Of a stretch of 64,000 nt of DNA, positions 36,135 through 39,823 are shown piece after piece; within the stretch, counting starts at the first letter, position 1; each line of letters begins with the position of its first letter. The translations under genes and the position numbers were made by a program. Below the pieces are notes generated by a model that saw nothing but the letters and a program-made list of their open reading frames with translations, was not told the origin of the DNA and did not search any database. Source of the stretch: Variovorax sp. Root411 (GTDB lineage Bacteria; Pseudomonadota; Gammaproteobacteria; Burkholderiales; Burkholderiaceae_C); contig NZ_LMDW01000020.1 of the NCBI RefSeq assembly GCF_001425205.1, forward strand, positions 314,489-378,488, in the 5' to 3' direction.

Positions 36135-36788
36135 TTATTTGGGCAGCAGCTTGCGCAGTTCGGGCCAGACGTTGTCGAGCAGTTGCGGCTGTGCCGCGGC
36201 GGTCGGATGGATGCGGTCGGACTGGAACAGCGAGAGCGCATCGGGCGCATCGGCCACGCCCTTGAGCAGGAAGGGAACGAGCGCGGACTTGGTGGTGCCC
36301 GCCACCTTGGAGAACACTGCCTCGAAGCGCCGCGTGTAGTCGCCGCCATAGTTGGGCGGCACCTGGATGCCGACGATCAGCACCTTCGCGCCCGCAGCCT
36401 GCGCGGCCCTGGCGATCTGCAGCAGGTTGCTTTCCGTGTCCGCGAGCGGCAGGCCGCGCAGGGCGTCGTTGGCGCCGAGCTCGATCACCACGTGGCTGGG
36501 CTTGTGCTGCGCAAGCAGCGACGCAAAGCGGGCGCGCCCACCGGAGCTGGTGTCGCCGCTGATGCTGGCGTTGACCACCGTGGCCGCGATCTTCTGCTGC
36601 GCAAGCCTTTTTTCCAGCAGGGGCACCCAGCCTTCGCCGCGCTTGAGGCCGTACTCTGCGCTCAGCGAATCGCCGAGCACCAGGATCACCGGCTTGCCGG
36701 TTGCCACAGCCTGGGCCTGCGCCGCGGCCGTCCATATCCCCGCGCTGCCGAGCGCGGCGGTGGTCAAGATAAAGTCACGTCGATTCAA
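36135..36788 (-). CDS. SGNH-hydrolase arylesterase / TesA-like lysophospholipase
   Basis: GDSL-family hydrolase (217 aa) related to TesA. The nucleophile is Ser41 in LGDSLSAEYG, the block III motif is ELGANDALRGLP, and the catalytic Asp/His are in SDRIHPTAAAQP. The N-terminus NRRDFILTTAALGSAG ending in AQAQA is a Tat-like or Sec signal, so it acts in the periplasm. The start is a TTG at 36788; no ATG fits and GGAAAGG lies upstream. It is divergent from the YbbA-like ATPase, the same arrangement as tesA-ybbA in E. coli. Confidence 0.87.
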   Translation of the reverse strand: MNRRDFILTTAALGSAGIWTAAAQAQAVATGKPVILVLGDSLSAEYGLKRGEGWVPLLEKRLAQQKIAATVVNASISGDTSSGGRARFASLLAQHKPSHVVIELGANDALRGLPLADTESNLLQIARAAQAAGAKVLIVGIQVPPNYGGDYTRRFEAVFSKVAGTTKSALVPFLLKGVADAPDALSLFQSDRIHPTAAAQPQLLDNVWPELRKLLPK

Positions 36789-36803
36789 AACCAGAGCCTT
36801 TCC

Positions 36804-37514
36804 ATGTCCCAACCCCCGTCTGATGCCATTGTCGCCGTCGAGCATGTCTTCAAGTCCGTCACCGACTCGACCGGCACGCTGGACATTCTGCAGGACATCG
36901 ATTTCACCCTCGGCGCGCGGGAAACCGCCGCCATCGTCGGCGCCTCGGGCTCCGGCAAGAGCACCTTGCTGTCGATCATCGCGGGGCTGGACACGCCCAC
37001 GCGCGGCACGGTGCGCATCGCCGGCGAGGACATCTTCGCCATCGACGAGGACGAGCGCGCAGCGGTCCGGGCGCAGCGCGTGGGCTTCGTGTTCCAGAGC
37101 TTCCAACTGCTCGGCAACCTCAGCGCGCTCGAAAACGTGATGCTTCCGCTGGAGCTGGCCAACCGCAAGGACGCCCGCAAGGCAGCCACCGAAATGCTCG
37201 GCCGCGTCGGGCTCGGCCAGCGGCTCGGCCACTATCCCAAGGTGCTCTCGGGCGGCGAACAGCAGCGCGTGGCGCTGGCCCGCGCCTTCGTGGTCCAGCC
37301 CGCGCTGCTGCTGGCCGACGAGCCCACCGGCAGCCTGGACTTCGCAACGGGCGAGCAGGTGATGCGGCTGATGTTCGACCTCAACCGTGAACTGGGCACC
37401 ACGCTCGTGCTCGTCACCCACGACCGCGGAATTGCGGCGCGGTGCGAGCGGCGCATCACGATCGAGGCCGGGCACGTCGCGCTTAATGAAAAAGTGGCTC
37501 TGGCGCCCGCATGA
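36804..37514 (+). CDS. ABC transporter ATP-binding protein (YbbA/LolD-like)
   Basis: ABC ATPase of 236 aa, MacB/LolD type. Walker A is GASGSGKSTLL near 46-56, the Q-loop is in VGFVFQSFQL, the signature is LSGGEQQRVALARAF, and Walker B is LLADEPTGSLD. Such ATPases normally drive an FtsX-like permease (YbbP in E. coli), but the next genes encode no such permease. Partnership is therefore unclear: a remote permease, or a function linked to the downstream membrane proteins. Divergence from the tesA-like gene matches ybbA synteny. Confidence 0.88.
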   Translation: MSQPPSDAIVAVEHVFKSVTDSTGTLDILQDIDFTLGARETAAIVGASGSGKSTLLSIIAGLDTPTRGTVRIAGEDIFAIDEDERAAVRAQRVGFVFQSFQLLGNLSALENVMLPLELANRKDARKAATEMLGRVGLGQRLGHYPKVLSGGEQQRVALARAFVVQPALLLADEPTGSLDFATGEQVMRLMFDLNRELGTTLVLVTHDRGIAARCERRITIEAGHVALNEKVALAPA

Positions 37515-37526
37515 CAAGCGCAATAA

Positions 37527-37543
37527 GCTATCAAATAAATAGC
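37527..37543. repeat. Interrupted palindrome GCTAT-N7-ATAGC
   Basis: GCTAT (37527-37531) and ATAGC (37539-37543) flank CAAATAA in the 51-nt gap after the ABC ATPase. It resembles the small GCTAT/ATAGC palindromes common between Comamonadaceae genes; that statement is from general familiarity. A similar element is in rluB at 15720-15736. Confidence 0.45.
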
Positions 37544-37565
37544 GAGTCAACTCGAGGAGATAGCC

Positions 37566-38060
37566 ATGGAGGAACTTCCGCCGGACGCCGTCCTGGCGCT
37601 GCAGCGCGGCAGGATGATCGAGGCCATCAAGATCGTGCGCAATCGCACGGGCGTGGACCTCAAGTCGGCCAAGGAAGCCGTCGATCGCTACGCCGACCGG
37701 CAGGAAGCAGGGGATGGCGATGCTCCGTGCGGCCGCGGTGCGCCCGCTGCCGCAAGGCAGGACCGCGGCTTCGCGGCCATGCCGTCCACCGCGCTCGCGG
37801 CGCTGGCGCGGGGCAACAGGATCGAGGCCATCCGCCTCACCCGCGAGGCCACCGGCCTGAGCCTGGCCGCGGCCAAGCGGCTGGTAGACAACCACGAGGA
37901 TCCGTCGGGCATCGGCTTCGGCCCCTTGACCCGGCACATGCCCCGATGCTCGATGAACGAACCGGGCCGGGTGCATGGCGATGGCTACAAGTGGCTGCCG
38001 ACGTTGGTCATCGTGATGGCCGCGCTCATGATCTGGCTGTATTTCGGCAGAGGGACTTGA
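37566..38060 (+). CDS. Membrane-anchored protein with two L7/L12-C-terminal-like motifs
   Basis: The 164-aa protein contains two copies of the helix-turn-helix segment of the ribosomal L7/L12 C-terminal domain: GRMIEAIKIVRNRTGVDLKSA (about 15-35, followed by KEAVDRY) and NRIEAIRLTREATGLSLAAA (about 82-102, followed by KRLVDNH). A linker with Pro/Ala/Gly separates them, and a single C-terminal transmembrane helix covers about 143-160 (LPTLVIVMAALMIWLYF). A ribosome site (GAGGAGATAGCC) precedes the ATG. It is 4 nt from the next gene, so they form a pair. In ribosomal L7/L12 this motif recruits translation GTPases; whether it does so here is unknown. Confidence 0.82.
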   Translation: MEELPPDAVLALQRGRMIEAIKIVRNRTGVDLKSAKEAVDRYADRQEAGDGDAPCGRGAPAAARQDRGFAAMPSTALAALARGNRIEAIRLTREATGLSLAAAKRLVDNHEDPSGIGFGPLTRHMPRCSMNEPGRVHGDGYKWLPTLVIVMAALMIWLYFGRGT

Positions 38061-38064
38061 ACCG

Positions 38065-39048
38065 ATGATCGTTCCCCAGTTCTGGGCGGAAGGCCGCATC
38101 CAGGAGCGTGTCGCGGGCAAGCAGTTCACCGTGCGCCGCTACGGCTGGTCCGACGAGAGCCCGATCGCCGCGCAGGCGCATGCCGACCAGCGCACGCGCG
38201 ACGCCTTCGACCGCATCGTCCACCAGGGCGAGAAGCTCGAACGCCGCGAACGCAAGGTGCCCTACAACGGCGCCGACGGCATGCCGATCCGCGAGGAAAT
38301 CGTCGAGCGCCATGGCGACACCGTCATCACGCGCAACACTTACGGCGCGCGCTGCCTCAATACGCCCGATGTGCTGTTCGTCGACATGGATTTCGAGGAG
38401 CCCCTGCGCGGCAGCGTGTTCGGCTTTGCGCTGGTGCCGGCGCTGATCGCGGGCGTGGTCGGCGGCTGGGCCGCCAAGACCTGGCTGGGTGGATTGGTCG
38501 CGGCTATCGTGGTGTTCGCCGTGGCCTGGGTCATCGGGCAGCGCAAGAAGCGCGGCGAGCCCAGCGGCAACCCCGTGCCGGAGAAGCAGGCGGCCGAGCG
38601 CATCGCGCGCTTCATGCAGCAGCACCCCGACTGGAACCTGCGCATCTACCGCACGCCCGCGGGCTTCCGGGTGCTGGCGATGCACGATGTCTTCAGCCCG
38701 TCCGACACCGCGGTGGCCGACTGCTTCCAGGCGCTGGGCGTCGACAAGGTCTACGCGCGCATGTGCCGCAACCAGAACTGCTTTCGCGCCCGGGTGAGCG
38801 CCAAGCCCTGGCGCATCGGCATCGGCGACCACATGCGGCCCCGGCCGGGCGTGTGGCCGGTGTCGCCCGACAAGCTGCCCGCACGCGACGCCTGGATCGC
38901 GCGCTACGAAAAGGCCGCCGAAGGCCATGCCGCCTGCCAGTACCTGGAGAGCGTTGGCAATGGCGGGAAGGTGCATCCGAGTGCGCTGGCGGTGCAGGAG
39001 CTGCACGACGAGCGCACTCGCGCGCTCAGCGGTTTGCCGTTGGCCTGA
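38065..39048 (+). CDS. Uncharacterised membrane protein with a conserved-looking C-terminal domain
   Basis: Not recognised. The 327-aa protein has a soluble N-terminal part (1-115), a central hydrophobic segment that can span the membrane twice (about 116-158, FALVPALIAGVVGGWAAKTW and LGGLVAAIVVFAVAWVI), and a C-terminal domain. That domain contains WNLRIYRTPAGFRVLAMHD (190-208), a CRNQNC pair (Cys234 and Cys239), FRARVSAKPWR (240-250) and ACQYLESVG. The motif-rich C-terminus looks enzymatic or nucleic-acid binding, but I cannot name it. It is coupled to the L7/L12-like gene (4-nt gap) and precedes rlmB by 28 nt. Confidence 0.8.
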   Translation: MIVPQFWAEGRIQERVAGKQFTVRRYGWSDESPIAAQAHADQRTRDAFDRIVHQGEKLERRERKVPYNGADGMPIREEIVERHGDTVITRNTYGARCLNTPDVLFVDMDFEEPLRGSVFGFALVPALIAGVVGGWAAKTWLGGLVAAIVVFAVAWVIGQRKKRGEPSGNPVPEKQAAERIARFMQQHPDWNLRIYRTPAGFRVLAMHDVFSPSDTAVADCFQALGVDKVYARMCRNQNCFRARVSAKPWRIGIGDHMRPRPGVWPVSPDKLPARDAWIARYEKAAEGHAACQYLESVGNGGKVHPSALAVQELHDERTRALSGLPLA

Positions 39049-39076
39049 CCGAGCCTGGGGTAGGGATAATCAGGGG

Positions 39077-39823
39077 ATGTCTTCTCCCAAAGTGATCTTC
39101 GGCTTCCATGCCGTGGGCGTGCGCATCAAGACCGCGCCGAAATCGGTGCTCGAAGTGATGTTCGACGCCAGCCGGCGCGATGCGCGCATGAAACAGTTCA
39201 TCGCGCGTGCGCAGGAAGCCGGCGTGCGGCTGGTCGAGGCCGACGGCCTGCGGCTGTCCAAGCTCAGCGGCAGCCACGGCCACCAGGGCGTGGTGGCGCG
39301 CGTGGAGCCCGCCGCGCAAATCCATTCGCTCGACGAACTGCTCGAAGGCCTCGAAGAGGCCGGCACCGTGCCCCTGCTGCTGGTGCTCGACGGCGTGACC
39401 GATCCGCACAACCTCGGCGCCTGCCTGCGCGTGGCCGACGGCGCGGGCGCGCACGCGGTCATCGCCCCCAAGGACCACGCGGCCGGCATCAATGCCACCG
39501 TGGCCAAGGTGGCGAGCGGCGCGGCCGAGACGGTGCCGTACTTCATGGTCACCAACCTCGCGCGCACGCTGAACGAACTCAAGGAGCGCAACATCTGGTG
39601 CGTGGGCACCAGCGACGACGCGCCGGGCACGATCTACCAGAGCGACTTCAAGCGCCCCCTGGCGCTGGTGCTGGGCGCCGAGGGCGAAGGCATGCGGCAA
39701 CTTACGCGCAAGACCTGCGACGAACTGGTGAGCATCCCGATGGCCGGCGCGGTCGAGAGCCTGAACGTCTCGGTGGCGAGCGGCGTGTGCCTCTACGAGG
39801 CGATGCGCCAGCGCGGCGCCTGA
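39077..39823 (+). CDS. rlmB: 23S rRNA (guanosine-2'-O-)-methyltransferase RlmB
   Basis: SPOUT/TrmH-family methyltransferase of 248 aa, which in E. coli methylates the 2'-O of G2251 in 23S rRNA. An N-terminal L30e-like RNA-binding part (about 1-90) precedes the SPOUT domain. Motifs are VLDGVTDPHNLGACLRVAD, VLGAEGEGMRQLTRKTCDE and IPMAGAVESLNVSVASGVCLYE, with the knot and SAM-binding residues intact. The ATG at 39077 follows CAGGGG. It ends 12 nt from the convergent FAD reductase. Confidence 0.93.
   Translation: MSSPKVIFGFHAVGVRIKTAPKSVLEVMFDASRRDARMKQFIARAQEAGVRLVEADGLRLSKLSGSHGHQGVVARVEPAAQIHSLDELLEGLEEAGTVPLLLVLDGVTDPHNLGACLRVADGAGAHAVIAPKDHAAGINATVAKVASGAAETVPYFMVTNLARTLNELKERNIWCVGTSDDAPGTIYQSDFKRPLALVLGAEGEGMRQLTRKTCDELVSIPMAGAVESLNVSVASGVCLYEAMRQRGA

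Follow-up and report, generated by a model that had tools for sequence, protein, structure and literature searches.

A small membrane locus of Variovorax sp. Root411 encodes a 327-residue protein, here called p327, that we consider, on balance, to be a divergent nucleotide-binding protein of the archaeo-eukaryotic primase (AEP) fold and probably a nucleotidyltransferase; a hairpin lying just after its DxD strand would hold it at the inner membrane. Its kinship with the AEP fold is likely, and catalysis by p327 is predicted with about an even chance of being correct. The evidence comprises an ordered set of nearly invariant residues, the predicted structures of p327 and of a relative that lacks the membrane hairpin, and the distribution of p327 with and without the L12-like protein (ORF1) encoded beside it.

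A membrane locus with an L12-like gene

The host genome comprises 6.06 Mb in 21 contigs. Between 36.1 and 39.8 kb of the window (the whole stretch of 64,000 nucleotides that was analysed), the gene order is a divergent GDSL esterase, a YbbA-like ABC ATPase, ORF1, p327 and, downstream of p327, a SpoU-type rRNA methylase (39077-39823). ORF1 (37566-38060, + strand) encodes 164 aa, and p327 (ORF2; 38065-39048, + strand) is predicted to be a primase-like (AEP-fold) protein with an inserted membrane hairpin; both genes have an ATG start and a TGA stop, and the gap between them is 4 nt (ACCG). The upstream ATPase matches the YbbA-like model with E 1.2e-77 and 260.7 bits, under the 336-bit cut-off. 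A first-pass annotation of this DNA had remarked that no permease adjoins the ATPase, and this is so; the neighbour on its other side is the divergent GDSL esterase. ORF1 begins 51 nt past the stop codon of the ATPase and has an AGGAG, found by eye, before its ATG; a consensus ribosome-site pattern matched elsewhere only, at chance level. A promoter and terminator scan of 36700-39200 gave no match, a result consistent with co-transcription of ORF1 and p327 without proving it. When the locus was compared with its relative L025, differences at codon positions 1/2/3 numbered 19/14/56 in p327 and 24/16/54 in ORF1, an excess at the third position in both genes that is clearer in p327. Because differences from relatives concentrate at third codon positions, we take both to be real, translated genes.

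ORF1 contains two hairpins of the L7/L12-CTD type (approximately residues 9-41 and 77-110), which Pfam Ribosomal_L12 (PF00542) matches in two stretches with E 6.5e-11, and a C-terminal membrane helix at approximately residues 142-160, the sole hydrophobic window in its hydropathy profile. Two L7/L12-type motifs followed by a membrane helix had been described in the first-pass annotation, and that architecture holds. The repeats do not amount to a complete L7/L12 CTD: they are hairpins of about 30 residues, and the best PF00542 stretch covers profile positions 9-37 of 67, that is, the helix-turn-helix part. DUF6793, a family named in no paper found in our literature search, also matches ORF1 (E 3.7e-6, profile positions 71-100). 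Against the NCBIfam L12 model ORF1 scores 37.6 bits for a cut-off of 84.4; unlike bL12, it has no match to the N-terminal dimerisation domain, its CTD is incomplete and present in two copies, and it carries a tail anchor, and we do not class it as bL12. The host genome's own bL12 is a separate gene elsewhere. By eye, the residues that we take to be the GTPase contacts of bL12 are mostly kept in ORF1, and a GTPase-contact function is uncertain because the domain is incomplete. At three other loci (L005, L052 and L054), a two-hairpin L12-like gene is followed by an extra single L12-like hairpin upstream of p327, giving three matches each.

Conserved residues and predicted fold of p327

The profile and structure searches that the first-pass annotation had proposed for both proteins returned Ribosomal_L12 and DUF6793 for ORF1, and for p327 nothing that scored above the Pfam or NCBIfam cut-offs, together with AEP-like structural models. 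PADLOC gave no match to p327, PHROGs gave weak matches only (the best, 0.0087, for a Fischerella relative), and sequence and profile searches of the p327 family against the PDB gave either nothing or one unrelated match (E 0.64, 1.6). A match to the holin family PF07332 (E 0.0027, below its cut-off) was discarded, as it spans only the membrane hairpin region of p327. In a viral-library search, an uncharacterised protein of a Sulfolobales filamentous virus matched with E 1.1e-3.

We assessed conservation in 45 non-redundant rows and in a separate set of 11 rows, about 30% identical to L091, that includes four hairpin-less relatives. The N-terminal region (residues 1-100; 38065..38364, + strand) has conserved P4, W7, A8, R25, G27, W28, R76, E77, R90, N91, Y93, C97 and N99. 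It is followed by motif I, VLFVDMD (residues 103-109; 38371..38391, +), in which D107 and D109 are present in 45/45 rows and also in the hairpin-less relatives. Motif II, YRTPAGFR (residues 195-202; 38647..38670, +), contains invariant Y195, T197, G200 and R202 and places a small-x-Arg element (G200, R202) in a beta hairpin; motif III is V226-D227 (38740..38745, +), with D227 invariant; and motif IV lies in FRARVSAKPWR (residues 240-250; 38782..38814, +), where R241, R243, P248, W249 and R250 are found in 100% and K247 in 98% of the 45 rows. Overall, the residues assigned to AEP motifs are conserved at 98-100% in the 45 rows and are invariant in the 11-row set. The 4-nt spacing, the two membrane segments and the sequences RIYRTPAGFR, CRNQNC and FRARVSAKPWR, all listed in the first-pass annotation, are borne out. 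The cysteine pair of CRNQNC is present in p327 but is not universal: two hairpin-less relatives have Thr instead of C239, and L014 has Ser instead of C234. It is therefore no defining metal site, and we reject a zinc site here.

The excerpted text of PMC5862659 gives the AEP motifs as hhhDhD/E (I), sxH with other residues in some families (II), hD/E (III) and Rh on the flange strand (IV). The motifs of p327 fit this scheme in order, with LFVDMD as hhhDhD, G-F-R as small-x-basic, V-D as hD, and R241 followed by K247. Motif I lies on a strand (105-109). Motif II is an Arg variant (G200-x-R202) in place of the canonical His; the same excerpts note Gln, Arg or Lys variants in some families and Arg/Lys in DR0530-like AEPs, a family to which we liken p327 by description only. 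V226-D227 agrees with motif III, although hD alone is a weak pattern and, in the model, D227 sits just before a helix and off any DSSP strand. The motif IV Arg of the PrimPol-PV1 supergroup has its counterpart in the invariant R241 on strand 240-243, which we infer to be the flange strand. The six-residue spacing of R241 and K247 equals that of positions 231/237 in PolpTN2 (179/231/237) and of K318/H324 in human PriS (H166/K318/H324), as given in those excerpts. This mapping was made by eye, after both sets of motifs had been seen. A loose regular expression of the p327 motifs matched 82/83 p327 rows and 3/228 other neighbours, together with 6/16 LigD and 0/22 Prim-Pol domains; it is not specific for known AEPs and misses most of the AEP domains given to it.

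The AlphaFold model of p327, built from 34 sequences, has a pLDDT of 90.4 and runs from strand 105-109 through the membrane hairpin and helix 171-186 to strands 191-196 and 200-205, further helices and strand 240-243, an order that in the model appears RRM/palm-like with a long insert. Among 50 VIA-align rows for this model, 11 are AEPs (PriS, CAPP, ASFV PrimPol and D5) covering residues ~80-327 with Z 4.0-5.3, 23 match the membrane hairpin region only, 9 are HIV RT palms and 7 are others. The relative L091, a hairpin-less protein of 284 aa from a genome of the same class, gives a model with a pLDDT of 78.9 for which 46/50 VIA-align rows are AEPs (Z 3.2-5.6), as classed by title and general knowledge: PriS, S-2L PrimPol, RepB', LigD, Prim-PolC, CAPP, ASFV PrimPol, poxvirus D5/E5 and herpes helicase-primase. 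The other four are HP0184, two de novo designed proteins and IlvN. Foldseek against the PDB gave no match at E <=0.001 for either model; for L091 its top match was the CAPP Prim-Pol (E 0.062) and its second the uncharacterised HP0184 (E 0.066). HP0184, an uncharacterised Helicobacter pylori protein (PDB 2atz), ranks among AEP matches and may share the p327 fold.

Structural Z scores below 8 can reflect a common arrangement, and matches of this strength to predicted models support AEP kinship without proving it. Profile comparison by hhalign gave P values of 0.003 and 0.01 for p327 profiles against Prim-Pol, with reversed and shuffled controls at 0.18-0.73; against LigD it gave 0.059 and 0.068, no better than chance given controls at 0.053-0.32, one shuffled control reaching P 0.053. 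Probabilities were 1-10% throughout and only the Prim-Pol comparison stands out; the DxD is in register for both Prim-Pol and LigD where the alignment was printed. In sum, p327 resembles the AEP superfamily (PriS, S-2L PrimPol, RepB', the LigD PolDom and CAPP) in its palm-type model matches and in motifs I-IV, but differs in the membrane hairpin after motif I, in Arg for His in motif II, and in having no recognisable helicase, PriCT or ligase domain and no significant sequence match.

The membrane hairpin (residues ~113-165; 38401..38559, + strand) separates the motif I strand from the helix that follows. Two hydrophobic windows begin at approximately residues 114 and 135, and the AlphaFold model has helices at 118-137 and 140-164. 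Across 82 aligned rows the insert contains two hydrophobic windows in 69, one in 10 and none in 3 at the threshold used; of the last group, L077 has no hairpin, and the inserts of L050 and L070 resemble weak ones. The hairpin is likewise absent from L091, from the Fischerella plasmid protein L084 and from L085. Because some relatives are hairpin-less, the hairpin would be an insertion into a soluble domain or would have been lost several times. The L084 gene (7479-8567) is carried by a 24-kb plasmid, where it adjoins an integrase gene and a protein with weak AAA matches is encoded nearby. L085 comes from a record labelled Bacteriophage sp.; the genes near it read, by eye, as bacterial transporters, and the record may be a bacterial contig.

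Distribution of p327 and inheritance of the pair

The p327 family occurs in several phyla (Proteobacteria, Planctomycetes and Verrucomicrobia), is scattered and unnamed, and has no Pfam or NCBIfam model. The closest named relatives are from Variovorax, with 99% identity in L020. Matches were found in 19/299 genomes of the same family and in 8/398 genomes of the phylum (the genome itself included in both), and at 64 loci of named records, among them MAGs labelled Planctomycetes or Verrucomicrobia as well as Acinetobacter, Pseudoxanthomonas and Achromobacter. A further search (A3) of 299 genomes at E 0.5 returned four clear family members and otherwise weak, short matches (E >=0.03) in 14 genomes. 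A scan of viral contigs detected no p327 relative.

That the two proteins might never co-occur elsewhere, a doubt raised in the first-pass annotation, is excluded. Across 81 Variovorax genomes p327 is present in 47 and ORF1 in 30, and in 30/30 of the ORF1-positive genomes p327 lies directly downstream on the same strand; p327 occurs without ORF1 in 17 further genomes (Fisher 2e-10 for the association, uncorrected for kinship). The same annotation knew of no described system with this pairing, and our literature search found none. A hairpin HMM run on 83 p327 loci identified an L12-like gene upstream in 33 and none in 50. A quick tree was built from 82 p327 rows, without L079. In it, all 33 paired rows fall within one 47-row group comprising Variovorax, Achromobacter, Xenophilus and kin, in which 14/47 are unpaired, and 0/35 rows outside that clade are paired. 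The label needs at least 5 changes on this tree, which would fit one gain of ORF1 and several losses. Because the neighbours of the Achromobacter pair (L050, L068) differ from those in Variovorax, the pair probably moved as a unit. Since p327 is often unpaired and ORF1 is always beside p327 in the 81 Variovorax genomes, we take p327 as the core component and ORF1 as a lineage-specific accessory that joined it late. Additional copies were also seen: one genome has, besides an intact pair, a further p327 copy that is split in two and probably broken (G823 C1:5977543-5978515), and NZ_FOXJ01000001.1 has an unpaired and a paired copy at separate places in one genome (L046, L055).

We collected 91 neighbour proteins at 30 distant p327 loci, of which 80 were scanned with Pfam, 10 singly and 70 together; for the 70, 25 of 101 families were listed. 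The neighbours are varied metabolic, transport and regulatory proteins, including four tRNA synthetases, three GGDEF proteins and one IMS polymerase; this polymerase aside, no replication theme is seen in the 25 listed families. The tRNA synthetases (4/70) are taken as chance and probably belong to a cluster including L017 and L018, which share a genus, as well as L064 and L074. At two loci from distant, unrelated MAGs (L065:691-5004 and L075:19-5004), large DUF4011/SF1 helicase/MTES_1575 genes overlap the start of p327 with their last 4 nt and match PADLOC PDC-S37 (E 4.4e-164 and 1.4e-190); the viral-contig scan found no relative of the L075 helicase either.

A candidate nucleotidyltransferase at the membrane

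We propose that the palm (RRM-like) domain of p327 would hold metal ions through D107, D109 and D227 and an NTP through R202, R241/R243, K247 and R250. In most relatives the hairpin inserted after the motif I strand would leave the N-terminal domain and the palm at the inner membrane, facing the cytoplasm, a topology suggested by the charge pattern, with positive charges after the hairpin, as judged by eye. So arranged, p327 would bind nucleotides and, at the membrane, most likely transfer them to a nucleic-acid end to make a primer or a tail. The tail-anchored two-hairpin L12-like protein of Variovorax, Achromobacter and their close relatives may dock a cytosolic factor onto p327.

The palm could instead retain its nucleotide pocket but lack polymerase activity, so that p327 would be a scaffold or would sense, at the membrane, a ligand that is a nucleotide or a nucleic acid. 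Arg in motif II, p327 having no helicase or other known domain that we could find, and the varied neighbours outside the paired clade would all suit such a role, but neither the three acidic positions nor the basic ones vary between phyla or in the hairpin-less relatives, and such invariance usually marks catalysis; we regard this reading as doubtful, at perhaps one chance in a few. It is unlikely that p327 is another RRM/palm enzyme (a cyclase, or a GGDEF-like, Rep/HUH or RT-like palm) or an unrelated fold merely resembling AEPs. Z and E-values are weak throughout, the profile comparison with LigD does no better than its control, RT palms make up 9/50 rows for the p327 model, and SV40 T-antigen and AAV Rep are among the Foldseek matches; against this, the hairpin-less L091 model brings up AEPs almost exclusively, and the motif II-IV residues fit AEPs beyond the DxD.

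Two further readings look to the partners of p327. As a component of anti-phage defence teamed with helicase-nucleases, p327 would explain the 4-nt overlap with PDC-S37 genes at L065 and L075 and its patchy occurrence in family and phylum. However, a reverse search found p327 at 0/30 other PDC-S37 loci (the match and <=1.5 kb on each side, from 39 positive genomes), and the two helicases are neither within each other's best 8 matches nor clustered with the gene of another p327 locus; we set aside the PDC-S37 partnership and judge a defence role quite improbable. The first-pass annotation had suggested that the pair could recruit translation GTPases or ribosomes to the membrane, a notion in keeping with the two L12-CTD-type hairpins and membrane helix of ORF1 and with its never occurring without p327 in the 81 Variovorax genomes. 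We reject such a tether as the core function because most p327 loci lack ORF1: p327 is unpaired in every row outside one clade and in some within it. The fold and residues of p327 suggest a primase-type palm and not a part in translation, the L12 domain is matched by the best hairpin over positions 9-37 of 67 only, and the genome has its own bL12; the tether is thus the least credible of these readings, and very unlikely.

Building on the preferred reading, of p327 as an AEP-fold nucleotidyltransferase, we tentatively raise a broader possibility, one we think will rather fail than hold: that p327 founds an integral-membrane primase-polymerase family, in which an AEP palm is split by a transmembrane hairpin after the DxD and nucleic acid is made or tailed at the inner membrane, for example on incoming single-stranded DNA, with a lineage-specific L12-like adaptor to a cytosolic factor. 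Replication, end joining, damage tolerance and CRISPR adaptation all involve primase-type polymerases. No membrane-inserted AEP or primase-polymerase was apparent in a literature search of open-licence papers by titles and abstract starts; the word 'transmembrane' is absent from PMC5862659, and PMC4158269, the only one of these papers with both 'AEP superfamily' and 'transmembrane', describes no membrane-inserted AEP in its excerpted text. The more modest claim would by itself give a testable active site to a family outside the Pfam and NCBIfam models. If the broader proposal is true, nucleotide transfer would be linked to the membrane by a conserved, multi-phylum family whose anchor lies within the catalytic fold.
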